Assembly: GCA_950295325.1 (NCBI GenBank)
Contig: OX485803.1
Location: 67,843,554 to 67,907,553 of the forward strand
Length of the DNA: 64,000 nt
Reading direction: 5' to 3'
Origin: Polytrichum commune
Lineage: Eukaryota > Streptophyta > Polytrichopsida > Polytrichales > Polytrichaceae
Position numbers and translations under genes: made by a program. The notes below the pieces were generated by a model that was not told where the DNA came from, made no database searches, and saw only the letters and a program-made list of their open reading frames with translations. Below, one piece after another: positions 46,700 through 64,000 of this stretch. Within the stretch, counting starts at the first letter, position 1. The number at the start of each line of letters is the position of its first letter.

Positions 46700-48508
46700 A
46701 GGCTAGAATGTATTACCAATATTTCATTTCGGCAAGTATCAGAGGCACCATCCACACAACCACAATAAAAACAACTCCAAGAACTACACATTCCCACACC
46801 CAAAATACATAGAATCATGAGAAACTCTCACAAATCTCCATTAAAGTATTTAACACACATTACCTTTAACAAACAAAAATTTAAAAAGAAAAATGTCCCA
46901 TCCCATTGTACTAATATGAATATCGTAGGTTACTTATTGTGTGGCACTATCGCTAACCACGGTCCACCTACAAAAGTAGGCACTAAGTCACCCCTGCTAC
47001 CCCCATAGCCACCTTGCCATAGGCAAGAGGTGGTGAACAAACATTGCATGACAACGTGAAATACACTGACATTCTTTATTCTTTTATTTTCTTAATCGTT
47101 GTGGTACCCTCTGTGAATTTCAAGACCTGAACTTAAAGTGGTAGGACCCCTATGACCTTCTATTTTTGTCAACACTAGCATGTTTATACACAGACTCTCT
47201 CTCTCTCTCTCTCTCCAAGACAAACTTATCAATATTAACCAAATATGGCTACTTAGGTTGCTATGATGATTGTTATGATCCTTTCCATGAAATGCGATGT
47301 TTGGATGACCCCTATAACCGCATGTCTTTGCCACTGCTAACATGATTATGGAGTCTCTCACTCTCTTATTGCAAGCCAAACTTATCAATGTCATGGACCA
47401 ACTACAGGTAAGGTATGTGGATGTTAATAAGTCATTTTTTCATGTTTTCCAACTTCTACCAATTAGATTGACGCAACAAAACTTGTGCTGCATCAACAAA
47501 TCTTTGATGAAGGATCCATCAAAATTGGATTCAAAACATGACCTCCCTTTACGATTATCGAAAGTGCATGTGTGTTGCTTTTCTGACTAGGTATCTAGGT
47601 GACTCCAATTCTTTTGACTATTAAATCTAGTACGATGGTTCGTGTGTCTTCTCATGGTTCCATTCTTAGGGTCCACCTAACTCCACACCACTCAAATATA
47701 GGTGTCCGATTAAGATAATCAACCAAATGAGGTCTGCATATATACTTTGGATTGCTTTGCAAATTGAGGTCAAGCAGTACTCTCCATGACTTTCAACAAT
47801 TGGATCTAAAGCAATGGAGCCAATATAACCGCCCATTGACATTACGTGACATTCACACCAGCTTTCGGCATCACCTCCACCCTTTTCTTTAGTTTTTTTG
47901 TCGGCACAAATTTAGTGTCTGATAGGAAGTGCATGGTCACGCCTCCTCCCAGACTCATTTGTCCCGGTGCTAAAGACACTTATTCACGCGCTTCGAAGCA
48001 TGTGCTTAATGATCACCATGTAGCCAACATTGATGGCCTCGCTCGCACCATGTTCCAATCGCGAATAGAAACAGGGCCAAGGGCCAAGTTCCAAGTCCCA
48101 ACTCTTTGTTTGTTTGTAGCAGCATGCATGCGCCTTGTTTTTAAGACTCGAACCAAAGCAATAGTCTCTGCAACGACCTTTGCAACTTAAGAATAGCACT
48201 TATTCACCGCACTTACAGAATAGTTCGTTGTTGCTCATGAAACACACACTGTTAGAGACTGGCACTATTAGAGATCCACAAGTGGTTGCCTCACCTATTT
48301 CTTTGAATAGGTGGCACTATTGTGAGATTGATAACTTATCGTTTCTTGCTGGATGGGGATATTAACTAAAATGAGACAAATGGTCCGCTCATTTTAATGT
48401 GGGGAACGTGATGGGAACGCAATGATTGATTTTTTTGTACGAGAGAATACCCGTAGAGGTTTTAGCCTCCACAAACCAAGTGTTCCAATGAAACCGGGCA
48501 AACAATCA
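46700..48508. other. No gene recognised; ~155-bp duplication and (CT)n
   Basis: Two related segments (about 47140-47240 and 47300-47395) share GACCCCTAT(G/A)ACC, GGAGTCTCTC-like CT runs and AAACTTATCAAT(A/G)T. The first contains a (CT)n at 47193-47215. A 114-codon ORF at 47846-48190 has no recognisable domain. Confidence 0.5.
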
Positions 48509-48516
48509 ATTGTAAT

Positions 48517-48852
48517 CTCGGGGGGGGGCAGTGTGTTAAAAAGTTAAGGATATAGGTGCGAACAACCACTATTTTATAGGGGGGTATTACTTTCAATTCT
48601 CTTCTTTTTTTCACATGCTATCATTATGTAAATTTCTACTTTAGGTTAATAGAAAAATGGCTTGCATTACTTATAATTCCAAAGTACCTATTATTCCATA
48701 CCCTATAGTACTTTAAAGATGTCCAATGCCATTTTTGATACCCTATATTACTCTTAAGTCGATTTATAATTTTTAGCTCCCATGATTTTAAAATACCCTA
48801 TCATTTGTTCGCACGTATATTGCTACTCCAACCAATGACTACCCCCCCCAAG
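48517..48852 (+). mobile_element. G-run MITE, copy 1
   Basis: Begins CTCGGGGGGGGGCAGTGTG and ends GACTACCCCCCCCAAG. It is flanked by a perfect 8-bp direct repeat ATTGTAAT (48509-48516 and 48853-48860). It is 336 bp and contains repeated TATAGGGTA/TACCCTATA words about 45-50 bases apart and GTGCGAACAA near both ends in inverted orientation. No ORF. Nearly identical, in inverse orientation, to 53834-54177. Confidence 0.9.
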
Positions 48853-48904
48853 ATTGTAATATGGAGGATCCCATCAAGGAAGACAAAAGGATTGTGCCTA
48901 CACT

Positions 48905-48924
48905 CCATGGGTGAACACCCGTGG
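48905..48924. repeat. GC-rich palindrome, downstream copy
   Basis: CCATGGGTGAACACCCGTGG: one base off a perfect inverted repeat of CACGGGTG arms. It lies about 270 bases beyond the stop codon of the DUF7869-type gene. Confidence 0.85.
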
Positions 48925-49190
48925 ACTATTAAACATTGGACGACATTGGACGACTCCCACATATTAAACATGTTGGCTAATATGACAATGCACATGAAAA
49001 TTCACAAAAAAAGATGCCTTTAAAAGTGGTAGTTTGAACATCCGTGGGACAAATGTCAATGTCTACGGCTCTCTAATTAATGCTCACAAAATTAAAATTG
49101 AGCTCCAAACATGCTAGATGGTGTCAACCATCTAGCCCACCCATGAGAGTCCACCCGTAGATACCCAGGAATGAGCAAGGCAACTTTAAT

Positions 49191-52166
49191 CTAGAGGTCT
49201 TCTGTTGGTACCCCATCCTCGAAAGTATCTCCATCAGTCATTTTCTCACCTCTAGTGCATCGATCTAAATTATCCTTTGCGAAAAGAATTTGCCGAGCTG
49301 GGATGAGAACATTGTCATCGGACGCATTCCTTTGTCTTGCCCATGATGCCACAACACAATCTAGGGATTGATGTTGTGGTGCATAGTCCTTGAGCCTCGT
49401 CCATCGAAAAGATTTTGCCGTGTCCCATTCCTCATAACGTTCGTCTAAGGTCTTCTTGTTCCTTTGGCCAAGGACCGGTACATAATAGACAATCTCAATG
49501 GAACGAGGATTAGGACCGATATGTGCCAAATTCGGCTCAGAAATCACTCGTCCCATCCACACTGGATTAGGACAATCCTCACTAGGACGTAGTAACACAT
49601 AATGGCCAATCCTGATATGTGCGCCGGGACGGAAGGTCTCAACAGGTCGAGAACTAGCTGGCCCCACGTAAGCATAATCAGTGATGTTTTCCTCAAGTAG
49701 ATGCACATTATCCACATGGAGGGTTGGTGCAATGGAGAACCGTGTAGCTGGCCAGAATGGCTCGCTAAGTTCAGATGGAGTTGGGAGTAAAGGTTGATCC
49801 ATAGCCGCAAGCACATTCTCCCAATATAAAATTGTTGGTGCAATGGACTCCATATATTGACCCGAACTATCTTGATTTGCTGTATCCTTCCAATACTTAA
49901 TAAAACCTTGCACCCCAAGCTTTATGTTCACGGAATCTTTCATCTCCCTTTTTGGAACGGGACGGGGGCACCCTACAAAAACAAACATACAATGAGCTCG
50001 GAGCAATACCACGGACTAACTGCCCACGGGTGATCACCCGTGGGCCACATACTTCACACCATGTATTTTCTAGTGCACTTCCAAAGCAATACAAACAAGG
50101 GACCCACTAACCTGTTGGGACCATGGTCTTCTTTGTGATAGGGTCCACCTTCCAAAGAGCAATTCCTCCATCAGGCACCCAACTTGGATCTGTACAATAC
50201 ACTTTGTACTGCATCAATGGCACTCCTTGAGGATCTACATAAAAACGGAATTGGTGCGCCTTGGAATGCCCAATAAGTCGATCTTGACCATACTCATTGT
50301 AGTATCCCTTCACCCATTCCTTGAAATCTGCAACCTCGTGGATTAAGGACGGGACAATAGTGGGTTCCCCAGCAGCCATGAACGATGCCATGAGGTCTGG
50401 GAGTGTATGGCAATCCTCAATCTTCAGCCTTTGTCCAAACCTCCCAAACATTGCATCCACATCCTCATGCGTATGTCCAACAATAAGGAAAGACACCCTG
50501 ACTTCCCGAAAAATTCCCTTTGCAGTCAGAGCTGACCAAAACAACATGTTGTATTTTGATTTGTTGTCCTTCGCACAATTGTTCATTTGAACAAGGAGGA
50601 GGGGTGGCAAACCTGTAGGAGGAATACTTGCGGGCGGTGGCAAGGGAAGTACTCCTGAATACTTCTCTACACCAACCACCAATGCGTCGTGTAAAGGATC
50701 ACCTATGGACGAAATCGGAATGTGTCTACTAGAGCAAACAGGTTGTACCTCAAGTTGACAAAGCAACTTCATCATCGAGGTGATAGTGAAGTTGGCATCG
50801 GATGGGTACATATCAAGGACATAATGCGCATAATTCACATCTGAGTGACCATGTGCAATCATCCCCGCAATGGATATGGGGAATCGCTCGTATTTGTCAA
50901 CACGTTTGTTTTTGTGCGCGAAGACGGGAAGAGCCGTTTTCCCATAATCCATTTTGTCATGGATTATACAAAGCACCTCATTGGGAGCATACTTTGACAA
51001 AATCCTATCTTTATAGTAACTGTTTCTATGAGCCTCCTGCAATGTTAGATGACGAAGGCTAGCATTCGAGATGGCCAAGTGACCAGTTGTGTTCTTTGTG
51101 TGTATTCGCAACAAATCCTTGAATGCTGCACAAGTTCCACAACGCGAGAAGTTGTCGCCGGGGCTCTTTATAACATACTGCTTGAAATGTTGTCGATGTA
51201 GGCGGCTGAAGGTGGACGTGGAGATAGGCGTGTACCCTAGGTCTCCGTCCAAGTTGTTCACTTCCTGCAATAGGTTGCACCACGTTGTTCCCACAGGGAG
51301 CATCTCCGTCCCTATCTTCTCACCAGTTGGAAGAGTCCGAGTCATATGGGGCATGGCGTCCGCCCTACCCTCAACCAATACTCCAAGGGTGGCTCGTGCT
51401 TGCACTGTATTCGCCCGTGGTTTTCTAGTTCCTGTATTTCCATGATCTCGAGATCTAACCCCCATCAAGCTTTCAGCCTTGTTCCTATTATATTGTGCCC
51501 TTGATATCATATAGATGTTCATCCATGCTCGAGTGCATATTGTTCTCCCTTCCAACTGCACCATTTCACGTCCGTTGTGCTCATGTTTCTGGATCGATTG
51601 GAACACCGACAGGGCTATGAGCTTCCGAGCATTGAATGGCAATGCGAAGTAGTGTTCCCGAATACTCATCAACAAAGGCCTTGGGAATACCTGGCAACAA
51701 TGCTCGGAACAACAATCCACCGCTGATAACATCCGCGCATGCTCCTCAGTGGCTCCCCAAATTTTCTTCCCAGGTGGCCGAGGTGCACACATCCTCACAG
51801 TGTTGTATTGGCGTTTTCCAAGCAAGCGCCGATGACTTTGAACTTCGCGGGTCGCATTATGATGGACCAACAATATTTCCGCTAATGTATGTCCTTCAAA
51901 TTTGGTGAGTGAAAGTGGCCATCGGTGCAGCATATTCTCCCAATCCCGCGAAATAACATTGTCAGTTGGGTTCAAGATAATAACTCCAACATCCTCAGCC
52001 CCTAGGATGCTATTGTCAACACAATCCAACGGATTTGTGTTGCAAATCAATCCATCACACAAAGCATGGCCCTCATCATCAAAGAGCACAACGGCCTTCC
52101 CCTTCAAGTCCGTCCTCGACAGTCCAATGTAATGTGGAATCTGAGCATCGATATCAAAGTATGTCA
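49191..52166 (-). CDS. DUF7869-type protein (two exons visible, 5' exon(s) undetermined)
   Basis: The upstream exon is open from 52170 to a donor at 50112 (ACAG|GTTAGT). The downstream exon starts at 49972 after a TTTTGTAG acceptor and ends with TAG at 49191. The 139-bp intron is phase 1 and joins in frame as Gly. Counting from codon 52170: a Cys cluster (CCSEHCC, 153-159), RCGTC (343-347), DKMD (405-408), QMNNCAKDNK (528-537) and VGHTHEDVD (564-572). The last three blocks are the hallmarks of the DUF7869 family, whose acidic/His pattern suggests an RNase H-like fold; its function is not established. The second exon has a BAH-like segment (GHYVLLRPSED ... VWMGRV). There is no ATG at the 5' end; an acceptor at GATGCTCAG (about 52146) is likely, so the true start lies in an unseen exon. 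No frameshift or stop interrupts about 940 codons. Confidence 0.75.
49973..50111 (-). other. Intron of the DUF7869-type gene, carrying a palindrome
   Basis: GT...AG on the minus strand, 139 bases. It holds a perfect 24-base palindrome at 50022-50045 whose half is GCCCACGGGTGA. Splicing keeps the frame exactly. Confidence 0.8.
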
Positions 52167-52186
52167 ACACACATTGACCAGAAGCT

Positions 52187-52204
52187 CACGGGTGTTCACC
52201 CGTG
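52187..52204. repeat. GC-rich palindrome just upstream of the large exon
   Basis: CACGGGTG-TT-CACCCGTG, within the putative upstream intron about 40 bases before the likely acceptor. Confidence 0.85.
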
Positions 52205-52700
52205 GGGGACAACATTGACATCTCAACAGAATATTTACATTCATATAGGGGTGAGCTCTACACCTCACTTCACACAACTCAAGTGAAGTATGTGTTACTT
52301 ATCATATCCCCATTGGGAGAATGACCCTTATTACCAGTTTCCACAAAGCCCAAACACCAAAACTATCACCCCTAACACTTACTTGTGTACAATTATTACT
52401 ATGCATGTAGGTGTCACATCTGCTGGCCCAAGTGCTAGCGAAATAGTTGCCATTCAGGATAGTGTCAACATTCCAGTTTAACGAATATCATCGTCATCAT
52501 TTATCATAATGCATCACGAAACTCCCAACTCGTAATAATATGTACCAATTACCCATTGACAACATATTTCACATACTCAGCAGGAAATTTACAAATAAGC
52601 ATAATTGCATATACAACTATTGAGTATGTCACACACATGATACATGCCTATCTTATAACCACACATATGTAGGGAGAACTAAAATACAAATCATGAACTG

Positions 52701-53046
52701 CCACGGGTGAACACCCGTGGGGGCTTCCATGCTGGTGCCGGATTCTCCCACGGGTGTTCACCCGTGGGAGGCTACCATGCTGACATCTACTACTAGAAAG
52801 TTTGTCACACACATGAGCATATGGATAACTTCTATTCTGACATATGCTAGGATAACCAAAATAAAAACCATAAGCTCCCACGGGTGAACACCCGTGGGGG
52901 CCCCAAACCCGGTACCAGAGTCTCCCACGGGTGAACACCCATGGGGGCCCCAAACCGGGTGCCAGAGTCTCCCACGGGTGAACACCCGTGGCAGACTGGC
53001 CGTACAGGAGGGGTACGGCCAGAGTGTTGTCACGGGTGCACCCGTG
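52701..53046. repeat. Palindrome array with a 47-bp tandem unit
   Basis: Six palindromes of the CACGGGTG..CACCCGTG type, at 52701, 52747, 52877, 52924, 52971 and 53031. The pair at 52701/52747 and the triplet at 52877/52924/52971 are spaced exactly 47 bases because the whole unit, including a GGGGGCCCCAAAC..GG..CCAGAGTCT spacer, is tandemly copied. The last (CACGGGTGCACCCGTG) is a perfect 16-base palindrome. Minus-strand ORFs here (52648-53061, 52758-53111) just translate the repeat. Confidence 0.9.
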
Positions 53047-53099
53047 GGAAAGTGGATGCACATTGGGGTTATAAAACCAACCTCTTCACTCATGTGAGG

Positions 53100-53825
53100 C
53101 ACGCTCTCCATGGTTGCTCCTCAAGGGTGAAGGGGGGTGGACTCAAATGAGGAGAAAGAAATGACCCTCCAAATGGTGGCCTTTATATAGGTCGTGAGCA
53201 TGGCCATCAACTTCTCATGAGGAAGTACAAGGCATTCCCTCCAAATTCGTAAGTACATAGACGTCATTCCCTCCAATTCCTATCGCTATTAGCTAATCAC
53301 GTTCTAACCTTCCTCATATTGAATAATGATGACCTTCGGTAGTGGGGTTCTACATCGTATGTACATGGAGTGAAAATTTGTTACAAGGCGAAGGAGAGTC
53401 TTTGCGGTACCAATGATCATTGGATAACCTTTGCATACACCTCATACCACTACCAAGCATACTCATGCCAAAATTACATAAGGACATGTGCACACATAAC
53501 AGGTCCACCACTTATGATGGGCACCCTTGCAAAATGAATAGTATGAAGGTTAGGTATTGTTTCATCCGCAAGAGTTAACAACGACATGGGATTCTCTCAC
53601 CAGAGTTATAGTTCCTTTATATTTTATAATTGTGAATAGGATGCCTATTTTGTGGGCAAGGTGCAAGGATAACCCGGTCAAAGCTACTATTATCTTTCAT
53701 GATTGCAGTCTAATTTGGGAATATGATTGCACCCAAATTCAAGGTTTGAAGCTCAACACTAGCCTGCTCCTTTTAGAGCAACTAGCATTGTGGCCCATTG
53801 TGTTGCAACTTCGGAATAGTTTCAT
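53100..53825. other. Upstream flank of the DUF7869-type gene
   Basis: No recognisable coding sequence. The promoter and 5' exon of the minus-strand gene may lie here or in the palindrome array. Confidence 0.4.
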
Positions 53826-53833
53826 ATACTTCT

Positions 53834-54177
53834 CTCGAGGGGGGGTAGTCATTGGTTGGAGTAGCAATATACGTGCGAACAAATGATAGGGTATTTTAAA
53901 AACATGGGGGCTAAAAATTATAAATGGAGTTAAGAGTAATATAGGGTATCAACCATGACACTTGACAGCTTTAAAGTCCTATAGGGTATGGAATAATAGG
54001 TAATTTGGAATTATAAGTAATGCAAGCCATTTTTCTATTAACCCAAAGTAGAAATTTACATAATGATAGCATCATTGTGAGAAAAATAAGAGAATTGAAA
54101 GTAACACCCCCCCTATAAAATAATGGTTGTTCGCACCTATATCCTTAACTTTTTAACACACTGCCCCCCCCCCCAAG
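53834..54177 (-). mobile_element. G-run MITE, copy 2 (inverted)
   Basis: Starts CTCGAGGGGGGGTAGTC and ends CACTGCCCCCCCCCCCAAG. The flanks ATACTTCT (53826-53833) and ATACTTAT (54178-54185) match 7 of 8. By eye it is about 95% identical to the reverse complement of 48517-48852. Each copy has its own target duplication. Confidence 0.9.
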
Positions 54178-54189
54178 ATACTTATACTT

Positions 54190-55920
54190 TCCTAGCCTTG
54201 TCAACTTGCCTCGCTCCACCCCATTGTCCAATGTTGTATTTCATGAGCAAATGTTTTGTTGTATCCCCATGATCATTCTTCTTAACCGACTTGACATGTG
54301 GCACACCTCAATTTCATGATAGTGGACATTTATCTTTATCAACTTTGTGAATCTTCCATATCAAGTTCACACTTTATGGTTTTTTTATTTCTCAAATTCT
54401 CGCCGCCTCATTTCGCATTCTTTGCCTTCTCATTGTTTTGTATTTACTTGGAAGCCTCTAGCCTTGATGTCAAATTTTCTTTGGTCTTCATTACACTACC
54501 TTGGAGTTAGAAGCAAGCAATGTCATTTTTCCTTTGGTCTTTGATTATTGTACATCAAAGCAAACAACTCATACCCAACATAGTTGGAGTGCGTAATCTC
54601 ATGGGTTTGAGAGTGTACGTAGTGTAGTTGGGGGTTTGATTATGGGAAGAGTGTTGGTAGCGTGAGCAAAGCGCATAACGTTTTTGGAGTGTAGTGTATA
54701 GTTGTGCGGAATAGGGAGCAATTTGTTTACTAGGATAATCCTATACATGATGTAATGTTCTTTGTGAAATAGAGTTATGCATTTCCTAAAATTGATTTTG
54801 TGAAGTTTTGAATATGGGTACCAAATCATGAAATTGTTCACAACATGTACTGAAATTGGTTGTTTAAATAATGAACTTGGTTCATATTTCCAATGAAATT
54901 GGAAGAACCTATCGCTAAATTGCTTTGTTAAATCATGAATTTGAGTTTGCACTTTTGTGGATTCATCTTACCAAAGGAGTATGTGTCACTTTCCTTTATA
55001 AACCTCTTGGTTTTGTTCACGACTTTGAAACATTAAACATCAAAACCCTAAGGTCACAATCATGTACTTAAGTTATCGAAGATGACCATTGAGAATTATT
55101 ACATCAAAACATAAAACCTTGAATTTATAATTATGAAGTTAAGTGGACCACCTTTCCCAAACAATCTCAACCTTAACCTCAAACTCAACCTAAACCCCGA
55201 TGGTTCACAGCAGTTTTTTCAAGTTAAGTTATCCAAGATGATTGTTGAACACTCTTCCCAAACAACCTCAACCTCATCATCAACGGTTCACAATGGCTTG
55301 TGGTGGTTTTATCAAGTTAAGTTATCCAAGATGCCCATTTAATAACTTTCTCATGTGACCTCAAATTTAGCACCAATGATTCGTGACCATGCCCAGCCTT
55401 GTCAACTTGCCACAACCTTGCCTCGCCCACCCCCATTAATAGTATGATATAGGATGTGATGACTCAATACCTACCTAGACTCCTACTATGGCATTATACA
55501 CAATTTGACAATTCGACCCTTCTCCCAATAGCTCAAGCCTAGGGTTAATCCATCTTTGACTTGAAAGCGCCACATGTTACAAAATGAATTTGCATGTATT
55601 TGACTGAAACATGCAAAATGCCACCAAAGAGAGAGAGAGAGAGGGAGAGAGAGTCCATTTTCATGGCACCTCTTTGATTTGCACAACCCATTTTTCATCT
55701 TTTAGCATCACTCGTCATTCTTATCAATCATGATGTTGGACATGTAGCAACATACCATAGAGTTCCTTTGCCACAAATATGTGTGTGTGTGTCTATATGT
55801 ATGTATGTATGTATGTATATATATATACATATATATATATATGTGGCCAACTCGGGCGTCAATGCCCTATTTACACTGGGGAAATCATCAAATTTATAGC
55901 ACTACGCTAGAGATGTTGAT
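54190..55920. other. No gene recognised; microsatellites
   Basis: Short ORFs only. A (GA)n is at about 55628-55651 and GT/ATGT/TA runs at about 55778-55843. Three related phrases around AAGTTAAGTTATCCAAGATG (55220 and 55314) and CGAAGATG (55078) indicate small duplications. Confidence 0.5.
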
Positions 55921-55931
55921 CCATTTATAAA

Positions 55932-56207
55932 CCGGTTTAGGGTTTAGGGTTTAGGGTTTAGGGTTTAAGGTTATTTATTTCCTTAGCATTTTCAGCTCTG
56001 GGTTAGTAGGATAGGGCCTTGCATTACTTATATTTCCAAGTTACCTATTATTTCAAACCCTATAGTGCTTTAAAGATGTCCAACGCCATTTTTGACACCC
56101 TATATTATTCTAAATCATTTTGTTCATTTTACGTCCCCATATACCCTCTCAATTTTTCGCACGTATATTTCTACTCCAATACATCACAAACCCCCCCCCC
56201 CCCCCCC
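55932..56207 (+). mobile_element. G-run MITE relative joined to a TTTAGGG array
   Basis: About four TTTAGGG units (about 55936-55968) run into TTATTTATTTCCTTAGCATT and then into the right half of the G-run MITE (CTTGCATTACTTAT, CCCTATAGTGCTTTAAAGA, GCACGTATATTTCTACTCC). It ends in a C17 run (56191-56207). The usual left end is missing. Confidence 0.75.
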
Positions 56208-56209
56208 GG

Positions 56210-59200
56210 TATGTGTCCACTACATTTCTAGCTGCACTTCCTAGGTTTTACGCTATATACTTATGGGCCCACCACTTATGCCCTTTGGATGACCGTTTTG
56301 AGATCCCATGTCGAAATGATGGCTTAAGGCTGACCGATCGACAAGGCTATAGAAAAACGCGACTCCAATCATTTGACATGTCCTTGGATAATGCACATGT
56401 TTGGGTAGACTTAGTTTGGACACCACGTGTGTGATTGGAACTCCCAATGCAGCTAGAGGACATATACTCCTCAACCTAAACCTTATGCCACAACACATAC
56501 ATTGAAACAACAATACAAAACAAACACATACAACCCCTTAATAGATGCAATGAGATACAATGGTTGCAATGTCAACCCCCTCTTCCCAAACTTGGATGCC
56601 CCAAATAGATAGTTGCACCCAACATAGCCCGGCTTCCAAAAGGAAGGCAATAAGCCCTATAATGAGCCCCCCCCCACCACCCCCAAACTCATGTACATTA
56701 TAGAGCAAACATACTCAATTTTTCCTAATAAAAATTTCTTCCCCTTTTCAGGATGTGCTCTTCCATATGTGGAGAAAAACCTCACATTCAAGAGTACCTC
56801 TCATCGATCCGACAGAAAATATAAAACTAAACCCCCTTGGTTTAGACTAATTCCGTAACTTTGAAGCTAATTACGGTGTCAAACCAATTGAATTTTTAAA
56901 TAAAATGTTTTTGGATGAATGTTGGGTGTGCTTGTATGTGAGCATGTTTTCTTGTCTTTGCCCTCGGATTGATAGGCTTTGCCTACGCATGGGGAATTTG
57001 TGATAGCATTTACATCCTCAAGGGCTTGGGCTTCTAATGTGAGGCCCTATATACATATCAATGTTTTTTTGGCCAACGAAATGGGATTATCGCATACGAG
57101 CATATTACTCTCATTCATCCAACAATGAAACTTTAAACTAGTATGTAGTAAGGAGGTTATTTTTCAAAGTTTATTGGAAACCCTATTTAGTTGAATTGAC
57201 CCCAAATTAGTCTAGCCCAAGTTAGGGCACATTTTCATGTACCAATCGTTTTGGTGAAACAAAATAGAGTTCTCTGACGTTGGTGAAGGTTTTGCCGGTA
57301 TCTTCAAGCATCTTTTGGACTGAGCACTCCCATGTGGAGTGGCAATGGTGGTTGGGGGGGGGGGGTAGCAGATTCGGCTCGTTGCCCAAAACACAAGTTG
57401 AAACGTGGCCATCCTTGTACTGACGCACTTTAGTTGTTGATTGACTAGACTGATTGATTTTTAATCATGGGATGCTAGAAAAATGAAAAACAAAATCTCC
57501 ATAAATTAAGAAAACTTTGGGCAAGGTTTGAATAGTAAGAACATGGCATCATGAACTCTCAATGTAAATACAACAAATTATGGTTCACACTAACAATGTA
57601 TATAAAAACCAAGGTTTCTCCGCTCAAATGAAAATCAATTTCCATGTGCTAGAATACCAACCTAGTCAAGTTTCCCTCCTCAAACTACAACTATCAATGA
57701 GCCCCACATACCTTATTAGTTTGGGTATGTGCCATCCTGACCCATTACACCAGTCCGTATGAATCATTTTGGGTTCATATCTTGCATGAACCCAACCACA
57801 TACATTAACCCTTGCAAACCATATGCCCATGCCCCTGTAAAACCTTCATGTGCATGTACGCACATAGCCCCACTCATAAGCCCCCGTGACCCGCTTTGGG
57901 AAAAAAAATAAAAAAATAAAAAAATAATCTTTGTTAACTAATTGTTAACTAATTGTCTTTTTTTAACTAATTGCTAAAATAAAGAATGAATTTATTTAGT
58001 TATGTAGCATGTGAGCTCTCAAAACAACAGTCAGTACTCAATGCAATAAACTCTAATTGTTGCACCATAGGTAGGTATCATGGGATGATTCAATACAACA
58101 TCTACTAAGGGGAGGGAGACCAAGGGAGGGGAAGTCGAAAGCATTGGTAACAATAGGACTAGAGATTTCTATTTAGAGATTATTAAACTACTCTTTAAAA
58201 TCGGGGTCAAATACCTTTGAGTAACCTTTAAGTAACCTTTCCATAATGTCATGCTCCAATCCATGGGTATGACTTGTGGACTTGCCATAAAGTATTTTTG
58301 AAATCACCTTTAAGGAGAATATAAAAGCTCAATTTTGGACCGTGTAGCCATAGATGTTGCATCCATGTGGGATTTGTTGTTGCTCAAATTTAGTACTTTG
58401 GTACTTAGGTTGTCAATCCATGTGCACTATCGACCCTACAATGACCGAAAATATTTTGAGAGTGTGCGATTGACTATGTTAGGTTATAATAAGGCTCTAT
58501 GTGATAGCATGGTTATACTTACATGAGTACCCTTAGATGTGCACTTTGGGAAGGACATTCGAGGCCGTAAATATGAAAGTCAACAAATACCTTAACCGTA
58601 CAAGCCCACTTGAAATGGCCGGGGATTCGTGGCACTCAAGTAAAGTCATCCGGTAACAAATGAGTCCATCAAGAAGCTCGGATGGAGCTTACTTTAGTGA
58701 AATACCTCCGAGTTGGCATGTAAGACCTACTTTCTCCCTCATAGTTATTTTATAAATATTAATTTGTTGGCAAGGGGCAATGATGTGGCCTTGGATGCTC
58801 TAAGCCTATTTTCCAACCTCCCATGAGATGTTTCCAAGGCCATGATGTGGCTTTGAATTTCACATGGTTATTTTGATAAATATTGTAAGATATCAATGTG
58901 TGCAATATATAATTATGAAGTGTTGTCATAGACATCTTTTTGTTCATAATTCATTTATTTTGCACATGTGTGATTGTTCAAACATTTGTAATATGGCACA
59001 ATAATATATATCACCTTATGATAAATTGGTGAACTAAAAAACTCAATTCAATATTAGTATTAGTATTGTTATTATTAGTATTTGCATAATAGTATTAGTA
59101 TTAGTATTAGTATCATATAATTATATTTATTTAAAAGTAACGGTTATACACTATGTGATTTGAAAGATAATACAATATGTGATGAGGATAAATTATTAAA

Positions 59201-59500
59201 TAATTCAGATAGGCTATAGTCAGAAACTTATGATTTTCTCAGTAATATATACCCCATCTATAACGTTGTCCCACGAGTCTAATTCCAAATAACATATCAT
59301 TTATTTATACCTTATTCTCTTATAAACACTTGCACTAATCTATCATTAGAATGACAAATATAAGTTATTTATGGTAAGTCAAGCGGATTTTAGTGCACTC
59401 AATATGGGATTTGTAGTCAAGCGGCCTTCAAGAATGCAATTTTTGGTCGGGTTTAGAAATTTTCTCTACAAGATTGCCCCAACCCAGATTAGATACCTCC
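56210..59500. other. No gene recognised; homopolymers and AT repeats
   Basis: Poly(C) near 56670, poly(G) of about 12 near 57355 and a (TTAGTA)n-like microsatellite at about 59050-59113. Short ORFs are unassigned. Confidence 0.5.
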
Positions 59501-59510
59501 AAAAGTTCGT

Positions 59511-59745
59511 GAGGGGGTATTTAACGTCCGCCCATGTTAAAGCAAATATAATATGGGGTGTCAAAAATGACACTGGGCATCATTAAAGTACTATAGGGTA
59601 TGGAACAAATCGATTATTTGGATTTGTAATTAATGCAAGGCCCTTTTCTACTAACCCGACTAAGAAAACTACATAATCATAGCATGTGAAGAAAAAAATT
59701 GAAAGTAATAACCCCATATAAAATAGTGGTTGTTTGCACATGGAT
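59511..59745 (-). mobile_element. G-run MITE relative, decayed inverted copy
   Basis: The reverse complement reads GTGCAAACAACCACTATTTT near one end and CCATACCCTATAGTACTTTA in the middle, matching the MITE copies at 48.5 and 53.8 kb. The G/C-run ends are reduced (CCCCCTCACG). Confidence 0.7.
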
Positions 59746-59857
59746 GCGTGATAAAAGAGAATTAGTTGTTACTAGACTCCTAATTGCATATGAGTAGGAC
59801 ACAAATAGATGGCGAGCAACTAGTAAGGTCCAACACTAAGTGGACTACCACACTAAT

Positions 59858-60055
59858 GGGTTTAGGGTTTAGGGTTTAGGGTTTAGGGTTATTTATTTCA
59901 TTAGCATTTTCAACCTTGGGTTAATAGAAAAAGCCTTGCATTTCATATAATTCCAAATTACATATTCTTCCATACCCTATAGTACTTTAAAGATGTCCAT
60001 TGCCATTTTTGAAACCTTATATTATTCTAAGTCCTGTTGTTCATTTTTAGTGTGG
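59858..60055 (+). mobile_element. Second MITE relative joined to a TTTAGGG array
   Basis: About four TTTAGGG units, then TTATTTATTTCATTAGCATT and the MITE right half (AATAGAAAAAGCCTTGCATT, CCATACCCTATAGTACTTTA). The same junction occurs at 55932-56207. The C-run end is lost. Confidence 0.75.
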
Positions 60056-60059
60056 CCCA

Positions 60060-60684
60060 CTGTAATATTATTGTACTTTCCTTGCCTTACATTGGATTTT
60101 CATCCAAATATACAGATGAAAAACCCACAGTAATGGAAACCCCTATTTTGAAGGGTATGCTATGTTATATTGCAGATTAACAACAACACCGTAAGTGTCG
60201 TCACATGACACTGGGTGTTTGAGTGCACTTATTAAAATCTTGACATGACATGCCATTAGTATGCTTAAGGATGTATTCCTCTTAAATATTAAAATGAAAC
60301 ACATGACACTTGCCAATAGTGAGCTTAAGCATCTTACCCTTGGGAATGTAGTGGGAATTAACAAAACCATTTAATATGAACATGTACGTTATCACTATAT
60401 CACAGTAGACAATATAGCAATCATCCATGACAATGTTGCATCACAAGTTGCTAACATGAGAAGGTCAATGGATGAACTCATCCATCATCATGACATGGCT
60501 CTAAGTTATACCTCATGTAGCGTTCACATATGAAGAGATAGTCTGGCATACAATGGGGTATGGGTTGGCATGTGAACTATGTTGAGGATCTGTGATCATA
60601 TGTTTACTAATTTCCAATCTCAATATGATATCCTTGTCCAATAATTCTTAAGTGAGTCAGTGCCTTTAGAATTCAAGTTGATGT
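60060..60684. other. No gene recognised
   Basis: AT-rich, short ORFs only. Confidence 0.5.
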
Positions 60685-60692
60685 TCCCTAAG

Positions 60693-62013
60693 CTCGGGGG
60701 GGGGGGGGGATTCCCTTGTATATTTGCATACACCTGCGATAATGACCTATTAAAATGGGGGCTATTTACCTATGAGAAAGGATTATAAGGGATGCTAATT
60801 TTTGAAATAATGGTAAATTGTTGTGATTATTTGCACCCTATTGGTAATTATAAATTCTTGGATGGTTGATTTTATGGTACCCTATATTACTTATATGCAA
60901 TTTTTCCCCCCTGATTGCCCCCATTCCTTAAAGTGTATGATACAGTAGAATTCTCGTTAGAAGCACGTGTACAAAGTAAGAGAAACAAACATTTACTAGG
61001 GTTTAGGGTTCAGGGTCACACTGAAGTCCGGGCAAAGCAAAACACTAAACAATAACAACAAAAGATTGCAATTACATGTCATTAAGCAACACGAGCCAAC
61101 GAATGAAAGTTGTGTTGGATAACACAGTTAGAAACCTTGAGGTCTTAGGGAACAGGCCAGCCACATGTGTCTCAAAGTCACATTTACAAGGTTTGCAGAA
61201 GCCCTACAATTGATGCCTTGATCTTCCAATCCTACACATTGGTAGAAAATCCCACGCCATGCAAGCAAAATCCACCTAAACTAGCTAGGCTACCATTTAC
61301 ACATGTGGGAGATATGAGGGTAATCGAACTGAAATGGCTACTACAGATTTCAAGGTATACTAATGATCATTCAGCCCTTTCTCCAAATTATATCTCCACA
61401 TGTGTGAGATAGTACAAATTTAGCAGGTTTTATTTTTTATTTGAAATGAACTCACTCAATGAGTTTGCATCTACCTCATCTAAGGTGTAGATTTTGCTAG
61501 TTGATTCATTGTTACTAGAGACACTGTTGAGAGAATAGCATCCACATCAACCCACACACAATCACTCTCAACATACTTATATTTGTTGAGACCCAGCTGT
61601 TTTTTTAACCAATGGAGGTAAGCCATAGTAGTTGGGAAGAGCGTCTCTCTATTTCCGTTCTGGACTGCACGTTTCATCAAGTCAATGGGTTGCCAACAAT
61701 TGCCCCACTTAGTACCAACCTTCACCCTTATCTTTTGAACCCTTCCTATATAGAACATGCCATATTTTGGTGGCAAAGTATTTAATTTTTGAAACTATCG
61801 CTTTTTGTCCATGCTATTTTATATGTACCACTTAGGTAATTTAATCATGTTTTGTCAAATGCTATATTACATATAATCATGTTTCACAATCCCAAAGCAC
61901 CCTATACTACATCTAATAATTTTACAAATTTTACGCCAAATTTTTATACAAGACCCTATATTTTATCGCACGTAGTTCCTACGTTTTTCGCCAGTGCCCC
62001 CCCCCCCCCCGAG
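60693..62013. mobile_element. Long member of the G-run element family, perfect 8-bp duplication
   Basis: Begins CTC plus G14 (60696-60709) and ends C14 (61997-62010) plus GAG. It is flanked by exact TCCCTAAG copies (60685-60692 and 62014-62021). Both ends contain TGCGATAA words about 35 bases in, as in the short MITEs (GTGCGAACAA), and TATAGGG-type words. At 1321 bp it is four times longer than the MITEs and includes a minus-strand 98-codon ORF and a short TAGGGTTTAGGG stretch at about 60999. Confidence 0.85.
61480..61776 (-). CDS. 98-codon ORF inside the long G-run element
   Basis: Starts MPPKYGMFYIGRVQKIRVKV and ends in LAKSTP. It contains GTKWGNCWQPIDLM and AYLHWLKKQLGLNKYKY, and ends with VWVDVDAILSTVSLV. 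Composition and aromatic spacing look like a real, folded protein fragment rather than chance. The FYIGRV segment recalls VWMGRV in the second exon of the DUF7869-type gene, but I cannot claim homology. It may be the 3' exon of a transposon gene or a captured host exon. No upstream exon was identified inside the element. Confidence 0.45.
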   Translation of the reverse strand: MPPKYGMFYIGRVQKIRVKVGTKWGNCWQPIDLMKRAVQNGNRETLFPTTMAYLHWLKKQLGLNKYKYVESDCVWVDVDAILSTVSLVTMNQLAKSTP

Positions 62014-62019
62014 TCCCTA

Positions 62020-63680
62020 AGACATTAATGTCAAAGCTAAGTGTTCATGCATGTAAATCATTCTCATCTCTAATAACTTATGGAGTTATTTTTATCTCTT
62101 TCATGGATTGAATGACCTACGTATTATTCTTCCTCTATTCAATTATATTTCAATATTTCAATTTGAAAGAGTCTCAAGACTTTATGTATTCCTAACCTAC
62201 TCCTCGCTAAAGTATCTTTACGAGATTCCACAAACCATTCAATTCATAGAGTACACATGATTTACATGAATTCATTCATTGAAGTGTTTGACCCATTTCC
62301 TATTCAAGTTCTCATTTCCGTAAATCTTATGCCATCATTTAGAATTCCCTTTAATCGATGAGGTATGGTTATGGAGATGCAATCTTAATATTGCTCGAGA
62401 TTCATGTGGTGCTTGATGTGGCCCACTCGTTGGCCACCTCCTTTGTCATCCTCTCAATATGATTTCGATTCCGATGTCTCCCGCGGCCTTGCATATCACC
62501 TTGTACTTCAATATGTTAGTTTCCAAAGTCCTTTCTCTTTAGTTGACCGCTAATTTTGGCTAAGTCCATATGTGTTGCATGCAAAACAACCAACCCCCAC
62601 CCAAAAATTTGAGTGGGATAAATGATAACTCTAGTGCCTTTGAGAAGGTCATTCTTGAATTTGTGTTATCGCAAGCATGTGTGTTCATATTAGATGTCGA
62701 CTATGAACGTCAAAAATCTTAGCCAATGAAGAGCACATAATGAATCTAGTAATAATATAACTTAAGATACAATTACAAGAATAAACGCTAGGAGAATGAC
62801 TTTAAAACCAAGTTATGAAGTGATTCTCAATGCATGGGGGTGAGGGCAAAGCCACAAAGAGATTTATGCTAAAATTGCCTAAATTTTTTTTTATGTTAAA
62901 CGATTTATGTTCATTCCTAGTAGTATTTACCTATCCAGTAGGGTTTATTGGGTATGGGAGGTGGGCATGTACCCATTATGCGCGGCAAGTATTATGTGTG
63001 ATGATTTCTAATGGCCAACAACTTTGATGCTTTATAAGTATCCATGGCCGCTTCTTATGTCATGCCATTATTTTCGTTGCCATAATATATGTTATATTTA
63101 AAATTTTGAATTCTTGGAACTCTAATGGTTCATAGTCCAAGAGAAAACAAGAGAACAATCGAACTTGAGTTCATGGGCTAAGGTGAAAGTGGGCCTATTA
63201 TGGATGCTCACGACTTCATCAATAAGGAATTGGAAATCATAGCTATGCTTGATGTCAAGCGCGATTGAGCATCTTACACGCATATTATGAGAATGTGCAA
63301 TTGACTTTGGTATGTTATAATAGGAATCTATGTTACAGAGTAGAATGTTAAAGTATGGAATCTATGTTATAATATGAACCTATTTTAAGCATTATCAATA
63401 CTATTACCATTTATCGATTGAAAGTGATTATTATTATTACTATAAATCACTACTAGTCAGCCATTAGTAATTCATAATTATTAATCACTATTAAAAATTA
63501 TTAATGACTATAATGACCTATGAAGCACTAGCATTCACTATTATTCACTACTAGTCACTATTAGTTACTATTACTGGTAATTACTATTAATCACTATAAA
63601 TCATTTTTACTAATATTACTAATATTACTAATATTAACAATAGAGTGAATATGACAATTTACTAACAATAAAAATAATAT
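62020..63680. other. No gene recognised
   Basis: AT-rich, short unassigned ORFs. Confidence 0.5.
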
Positions 63681-63686
63681 CAATCA

Positions 63687-63900
63687 TACTAATATGAGTT
63701 ATCTTAATAAGTACTAATAATGAACTTACTAATATGAGTTATCTTACTAAGTACTGATAATTATCTTACTAATATGCAGTTATCTTACTAATTACTAATA
63801 ATTGTCTTACTAATACTTAGATATCTTACTAAGTACTAATAATTATCTCACTAATACTTAGATATCTTACTAAGTACTAATAATTATCATACCAATAGGG
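63687..63900. repeat. 40-bp AT-rich tandem repeat
   Basis: About five or six copies of a 40-41 base unit with TTACTAATA, TTATCTTACTAAGTACT and AATAATTATC words; successive starts are near 63687, 63727, 63767, 63808 and 63849. Confidence 0.85.
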
Positions 63901-64000
63901 CGAACCTTACAAAGTACCAATAATTTTTTATCGCTACGTCCTAATACCATCATACCGCCCATCCCTCCTCAAAACGTACTTTAGCCGCCAAATCGCATAT

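Follow-up and report, generated by a model that had tools for sequence, protein, structure and literature searches.

The DNA analyzed here, referred to as the window, is a stretch of 64,000 nucleotides from Polytrichum commune (assembly GCA_950295325.1, contig OX485803.1, positions 67,843,554 to 67,907,553), and our subject is a short palindrome that recurs in it around a gene encoding a DUF7869 domain (gene 1). We found that these palindromes are part of a DNA transposon, about 25 kb long, of which the window holds only the left part. Seven of them conform exactly to CACGGGTG-(N2 or none)-CACCCGTG, compared to an average of 0.00 over 100 shuffled sequences, and two further palindromes, at 48906 and 52926, contain one mismatch. 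When the entire window was scanned with up to three mismatches and a spacer of 0 or 2 bases, no palindrome beyond these nine, which span 48906-53046, was detected. The number and restricted location of the palindromes proposed in a sequence-only reading of the window were thus confirmed, and so were the perfect 24-base palindrome within the 139-bp GT..AG intron of gene 1 and the absence of palindromes from its exons (0/9 in the exon open frames). The palindrome at 52187 can be placed just before the acceptor of the large exon only tentatively, because the 5' end of that exon is uncertain.

The protein encoded by gene 1 matches PF25273 well above the curated cut-off (E 4.9e-45; 153.9 bits, cut-off 26), and the Pfam name of this domain, DUF7869, gives no function. 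In the 407.8 Mb of genome searched, DUF7869 is carried at no fewer than 150 places (150 of 1,491 candidates were scored, all above the cut-off); as the profile searches scored part of the candidates, this and similar counts are lower bounds. Conserved acidic motifs, seen by eye, suggest that DUF7869 may be a transposase; a single-sequence structure model of the exon had a predicted local distance difference test (pLDDT) score of 31 and was unusable. In the window's copy of gene 1 (50107-52185), one conserved acidic position of a DDE-like motif is altered, a position that is kept in transposon copies A and B and in locus L010. Because of this change, the window copy may be inactive. All gene models were built from homology and splice signals.

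Table 1. Features of the transposon in and beyond the window, and palindrome types. Positions without a prefix are window positions.
Feature	Position or loci	Strand	Remarks
Transposon, left ~15.6 kb	48353..64000	.	Copies A and B 99% identical up to the window end; left flanks unrelated
Complete copy A	C5:45654791-45679882		25,092 bp
Complete copy B	C1:48452758-48477718		24,961 bp
23-bp terminal inverted repeat, left copy	48353..48375	+	ATGGGGATATTAACTAAAATGAG
Nested insertion like a miniature inverted-repeat transposable element (MITE)	48517..48852	.	Flanked by ATTGTAAT (48509-48516, 48853-48860), a target duplication of 8 bp
Palindrome, one mismatch	48906..48923	.	3' (downstream) of gene 1
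Gene 1, 3' exon	49194..49972	-	C-terminal part, without Pfam match
Gene 1, intron	49973..50111	-	GT..AG, 139 bp; ends placed by hand
Perfect 24-bp palindrome	50022..50045	.	Inside the 139-bp intron
Gene 1, large exon	50112..52185	-	692-amino-acid open frame, PF25273; 5' end uncertain
Palindrome	52187..52204	.	Immediately 5' of the large open frame
Upstream cluster, six palindromes	52702..53046	.	Partly a 47-bp tandem repeat; members at 52702, 52749, 52879, 52926 (one mismatch), 52973, and 53031 (spacerless)
Second MITE-like unit	53839..54175	.	Inverted relative to the first; in most copies aligned through the region
Type P1	Window		CACGGGTG..CACCCGTG
Type P1'	L023-L025		CCCACGGGCG..CGCCCGTGGG
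Type P2	L005-L009, L029, L038-L040		GAGGCCTCGGATCCGAGGCCTC; long arrays
Type P3	L028		TTTACGAACG..CGTTCGTAAA
Type P3'	L026, L027		AGGTTTACGGACG..CGTCCGTAAACCT
Type P4	L013		GGTTTGGGTCG..CGACCCAAACC
Type P5	L019, L020		GGGTGAGGCA..TGCCTCACCC

The palindromes lie in a ~25-kb DNA transposon

Comparison with two complete copies, A and B, delimited the transposon (Table 1); its right end was determined in these copies and not in the window's own. The termini read ATGGGG.., and the inverse of the left terminal repeat is found at the right end, exactly in copy A and with one mismatch in copy B. Both copies, the two that were checked, are flanked by 4-bp target duplications (TACC in A and ATCC in B). 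At least 40 left ends of the transposon are present in the genome (40 of 196 candidates scored).

Besides the DUF7869 gene, the transposon carries a large gene that we call gene 2 and an NLI/FCP1-like phosphatase gene. Gene 1 is located at the left on the minus strand. Past its 5' side, at a distance of about 13 kb, follow gene 2, which is on the plus strand and has at least three exons, and the phosphatase gene, whose product is NLI-interacting-factor-like (PF03031, E 4.6e-11). Phosphatase genes of this NLI-interacting-factor (FCP1-like) kind were seen inside transposons at L016:1331-2152 (copy A) and L001:6411-7181.

A search of the genome for exact palindromes of the window type, named P1, returned 953 sites, compared to 0 for the reversed control. 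Among the 50 of these 953 places that were listed, 9 lie within arrays of another palindrome, P2, and 41 outside them; 28 of the 41 are in stretches that we read or that match the transposon, and the other 13 are in a cluster at 19.77-19.84 Mb. Outside the transposon, the window (48 kb) holds one long palindrome by our fixed criterion. Whether the palindrome tracks copies of the DUF7869 gene had been named as a check. It does track copies of a mobile element with DUF7869, but it follows this element as a whole and is associated with the upstream regions and introns of gene 2 no less than with those of gene 1.

Most palindromes occupy noncoding DNA of the transposon's own genes

Copy A contains 21 exact palindromes. 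They form clusters upstream of gene 1 and gene 2, and further ones are found singly or in pairs in and between the genes. Exons account for 60% (7,995/13,393 bp) of the two gene regions, yet only 1 of the 21 falls in an exon (P 1.7e-7), and after clustering of the sites the count is 1 of 10 clusters (P 0.0018). For these values, exon limits were placed by hand and the site-free middle of about 12 kb was excluded. The exon avoidance claimed for gene 1 thus extends to 20 of the 21 sites of copy A and is strong, not absolute, because one site lies in frame in gene 2.

Around ten dispersed sites, the flanks had a mean identity of 0.295, compared to 0.287 at random places (45 pairs). As the flanks resemble each other no more than random places do, the dispersed sites are not explained by larger repeats and have in common only the palindrome itself. 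Spacers AA and TT are both present, and the orientation of the palindrome is therefore free.

CACTA (En/Spm) transposons, which have CACTA termini, a 3-bp target duplication, and a Transposase_21 gene, carry subterminal repeats that are bound by an element protein and overlap the promoter. Similarly, the palindromes might be transposase-binding sites that serve the transposition reaction itself. They are likewise repeated short motifs, they are specific to the transposon and the family, and degenerate copies occur near the right end of copy A (33434 and 33625). However, most sites lie upstream of genes or in introns, away from the ends of the 25-kb element; in copy A, the outermost are a one-mismatch site 209 bp from the left end, not among the 21, and the last exact site, 614 bp from the right end. 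The termini, moreover, have only a short repeat in common, and loci chosen by gene 2 (see below) likewise show palindromes upstream and in intron 1. The transposon further differs from CACTA in its ATGGGG ends, its 4-bp duplications, the presence of DUF7869 and not Transposase_21, and the internal and intronic position of its motifs. We regard a role in transposition itself as unlikely.

Palindrome types are family specific

We compared 13 DUF7869 loci: the window, L013, and, picked for diversity, the eleven loci L018-L028; the P1 copies A, B, and L010 were left uncounted. Recurrent palindromes were present in 10 of the 13 and represent six types (P1, P1', P3, P3', P4, and P5; Table 1), and in the genome we found ten types, two pairs of which are close variants. 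The arrays in which palindromes occur have tandem periods of about 47, 54, 62, 78, 97, and 127 bp. Type P3 also occurs in a neighbor of copy A that has its own gene 2 and phosphatase gene. In L026-L028 (e.g., L026:6918-6935), another common palindrome, GAGACTTTCCAAAGTCTC, lies downstream of the DUF7869 gene, and in L028 it is found upstream as well.

The 502-amino-acid DUF7869 family, which carries P4, reads straight through the site of the 139-bp intron without an intron. At L013:2653-4158, a member of this family apparently has an intron elsewhere, which points to intron gain or loss between families.

Type P2 has 1,903 copies in the genome, compared to 0 for the control, and P1 sites are embedded in its arrays. 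These arrays adjoin genes to which we could assign no identity, with a period of about 127 bp in L005. Two candidate associations of P2 arrays were rejected: a tie to CACTA, because in the two P2 copies compared the nearby Transposase_21 gene falls outside the element, and a gene-2 homolog beside the array in L029, seen by eye, which a profile built without the L029 row does not match.

The palindromes follow gene 2 no less than DUF7869

A genome search with exon 1 of gene 2 gave 91 matches. From the 15 most divergent rows, 7 (23-28% identity) were taken whose palindromes were not known beforehand. All seven of these loci hold long palindromes by the fixed criterion, 1-11 each (one in L032), compared to shuffle means of 0-0.05. 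They added three new types, P6 (L030-L034), P7 (L035), and P8 (L036); as L030-L034 have one type in common, they are not independent. In the six families compared, those for which we could locate the first exons of gene 2 (P1, P1', P3, P6, P7, and P8), gene-2 intron 1 begins after a conserved TGGAA motif and contains a palindrome of the family's own type, which in P7 has one mismatch; in L031 (P6), only a shorter palindrome was found in this intron.

The association of the palindrome with gene 2 is thus at least as good as that with DUF7869, and because seven loci picked by gene 2 alone all had palindromes, gene 2 would be the likeliest candidate for the reader of the palindrome. A relationship of gene 2 to ParB was considered and is unsupported: no Pfam, NCBIfam, or PDB match was found, and a G-x-H motif, seen by eye, which we took to resemble that of ParB, was not confirmed by profile searches. 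No relatives of gene 1 or gene 2 were confirmed in viral contigs (pattern searches gave 0, 91, and 133 matches). The gene-2 alignment used for the viral, Pfam, NCBIfam, and PDB searches still included the L029 row that was later rejected.

Two families differ by a symmetric change in place

The P1 and P1' families have DUF7869 proteins that are about 86% identical, and their palindromes differ at the seventh pair, which we counted at sites within one mismatch outside that pair. Among sites with a two-base spacer, the pair is T..A in P1 (21/22 in A, 19/20 in B, 8/8 in the window, 15/15 in L011, and 13/13 in L012) and mostly C..G in P1' (8/10 in L024, 18/24 in L037, 5/6 in L023, and 3/4 in L025); L037 is presumably the same element as L024. 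Two of the P1 sites embedded in the P2 arrays of L009 are also in the C..G state.

Six dispersed sites could be matched by position between copy A and L024/L037, and in these the pair had changed from T..A to C..G at four and to C..A at two. The four C..G sites are one in gene-2 intron 1, two before the phosphatase exon, and one after it, the last with one other mismatch. The half-changed sites are one near the right end and the one in the gene-1 intron, which is half-changed in L024 and C..G in L023 and L025, with its AT center kept in all. Alignment of related loci, which the sequence-only reading had named as a check, thus revealed both family-specific palindrome types and a symmetric change at matched sites. 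Across 34 hand-picked sites (24 distinct), the cells changed on both sides numbered 11, compared to 5.9 after shuffling (1 of 500 shuffles as high), and the covariation score was 0.138, compared to 0.108 (2 of 500); these are related sequences, and the signal comes almost wholly from one pair.

Symmetric changes that preserve pairing, and the occurrence of sites in introns of all six families, would also be expected of RNA hairpins in introns or leaders that act on splicing or small-RNA production. However, the biggest clusters lie upstream of genes, the exact sequence and not pairing alone is common across sites, and the orientation of the palindrome is free, and we consider an RNA function quite improbable.

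Candidate recognition sites for a transposon-encoded protein

The explanation that we favor, and that we judge to be evenly poised between right and wrong, is that the palindromes are recognition sites in cis for a transposon-encoded, probably dimeric protein that acts on the transposon's own regulatory DNA. What argues for such a protein is that a dyad is found at unlinked noncoding sites, in free orientation, nearly uniform within a family and different between families, with both arms changed. The protein that binds the sites repeated in the noncoding DNA of the transposon's genes would most likely be the gene-2 product and, because the site is a dyad, probably a homodimer. Since the sites are placed upstream of genes and in introns, the bound protein would control expression or chromatin more than cutting and joining; by analogy with VANC proteins (see below), it might remove silencing. 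As every family has its own palindrome, the action of each factor would be limited to its family. Of the three readings offered at the outset for the window's palindromes, a binding site for an element product is accordingly the best supported, and a mobile hairpin and an RNA stem in introns are less likely.

Several observations weigh against this explanation. L018, L021, and L022 carry DUF7869 and have no recurrent palindromes in the 7.1 kb read, and gene 2 has no significant match to any known family in Pfam, NCBIfam, or PDB. The in-frame exon palindrome of gene 2 in the P1 element lies in an acidic stretch, and P1' has four in-frame palindromes there, spaced at 54 bp, of which two contain one mismatch. 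The 34 sites gave no excess in pairs changed on both sides (2 compared to 1.7) or in further pair types (6 compared to 6.8). Half-changed C..A sites occur in P1' among those with a two-base spacer (1 in L024 and 5/24 in L037), and the spacerless P1' sites are mixed (C..A twice and T..A once in L024, C..A once in L025, and T..G and C..G once each in L023). The difference between T..A and C..G is, moreover, what CpG decay is expected to produce on both strands. Sites also turn over, as the intron-2 palindrome of copy A is gone from P1' with most of that intron. Finally, very long palindromes exist, with arms of 54 nt (L035:2902-3009), 57 nt (L031:3216-3332, 3-base spacer), and 34 nt (L030:1488-1555).

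Because both changes are CpG-type transitions, decay may supply the mutations, and one could go further and attribute the whole pattern to concerted evolution of tandem-duplicated arrays combined with CpG decay, the family differences being drift. The tandem periods of about 47-127 bp, the CpG-type transition itself, and the half-changed sites within P1' all fit such a process. Yet dispersed single sites with unrelated flanks match the family type, and several palindrome types differ throughout, beyond their CpGs. The other CpG of the arm is also mostly intact in P1: among 118 arms from 59 sites within two mismatches, a set that includes copies of one family, there were 8 changes (7 at C and 1 at G). 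We hold concerted evolution and decay alone to be very improbable.

The very long palindromes, which in L030 and L035 consist of the family core extended into locus-specific flanks, suggest that a copying process (template switching) also perfects palindromes. Such copying would help to keep the arms matched; it does not explain the common core at unlinked sites. Taken further, the palindromes might be mobile or self-perfecting, that is, inserting hairpins or template-switched quasi-palindromes with no binding function. This fits dispersed sites that have nothing beyond the palindrome in common, arms that reach into locus-specific flanks (34, 54, and 57 nt and, for the P1 element, 17 and 14 nt), and an intron-2 site present in one family and missing from another. 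It accounts poorly for sites that persist at matched places but undergo symmetric sequence changes, alike in direction throughout the transposon; an identical short core at unlinked sites would still need a reason, and a preference for the noncoding DNA of the transposon's own genes is not expected of a free hairpin. We find it rather improbable as a full account.

Comparison with VANDAL transposons and implications

VANDAL transposons have a Mutator-like transposase and a target duplication of about 9 bp. In Arabidopsis, VANC proteins are reported to bind family-specific motifs in VANDAL noncoding DNA and to remove silencing (PMC5735166, PMC10398659). The first report names the VANC protein domains DUF1985/DUF287 and describes VANC21 as occupying introns and intergenic and terminal noncoding DNA of VANDAL transposons and as binding the 9-base motif YAGTATTAY, targets of which form tandem repeats and diverge between families (PMC5735166).

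The present transposon resembles VANDAL in being a multi-gene plant DNA transposon with family-specific short motifs in introns and in intergenic and terminal noncoding DNA, in its tandem arrays, and in its divergence between families; unlike the 9-base YAGTATTAY, the palindromes are mostly 16-36 bp. It also differs in having DUF7869 as its transposase-like gene, other termini, a 4-bp duplication, and no VANC domain that we could find: DUF1985/DUF287 gave no Pfam match in gene-2 exons 1-2, the core alignment, or exon 3 (P1' whole, P1 first 349 amino acids). VANC/VANDAL is the closest described system, and the present transposon is not a member of it, because no VANC domain was found and the transposase and duplication length are different. 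For VANC, binding and demethylation are reported as demonstrated; the present system may, by analogy, work in a similar manner.

We also entertain a broader proposal, doubtful as it stands, in which gene 2 would be the founding member of a new class of dimeric address-tag proteins encoded by transposons. Such a protein would read its family's palindrome at its own gene, both upstream and in intron 1, and also at the partner gene, and would protect or activate only its own family. Tag and reader would co-evolve stepwise and symmetrically, with the half-changed sites as visible intermediates, and tag switching would be a route to new families. An open question is how transposons recognize themselves and evade silencing while everything else stays silent. 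If the recognition-site explanation is true, ten types in one genome, with sister families one symmetric pair apart and intermediates between them, would make the co-evolution of protein and site testable.

Described here is thus a transposon type of about 25 kb built around DUF7869, a domain of no known function. A literature search for DUF7869 found no paper naming it, and searches on transposon palindromes and on bryophyte DNA transposons returned nothing on this transposon among the listed matches (titles and starts of abstracts). Within the literature searched, the transposon type and its palindrome system appear to be undescribed.

Other features

Two MITE-like units of about 330 bp lie within the window's part of the transposon (Table 1). 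They are inverted relative to each other and 94% similar, and both have G-run ends and 8-bp target duplications, that of the second unit with one mismatch, as read by eye. The first unit is absent at that place in the 25 other copies aligned over the left part. The pair was considered as the terminal repeats of the transposon and rejected, because the left unit is missing from other copies; the two are separate small insertions. Genes for chlorophyll a/b-binding protein gave 58 matches in the genome, as expected of a green plant, and at C5:1.75-1.85 Mb we observed a cluster of 14 such matches with identical scores.

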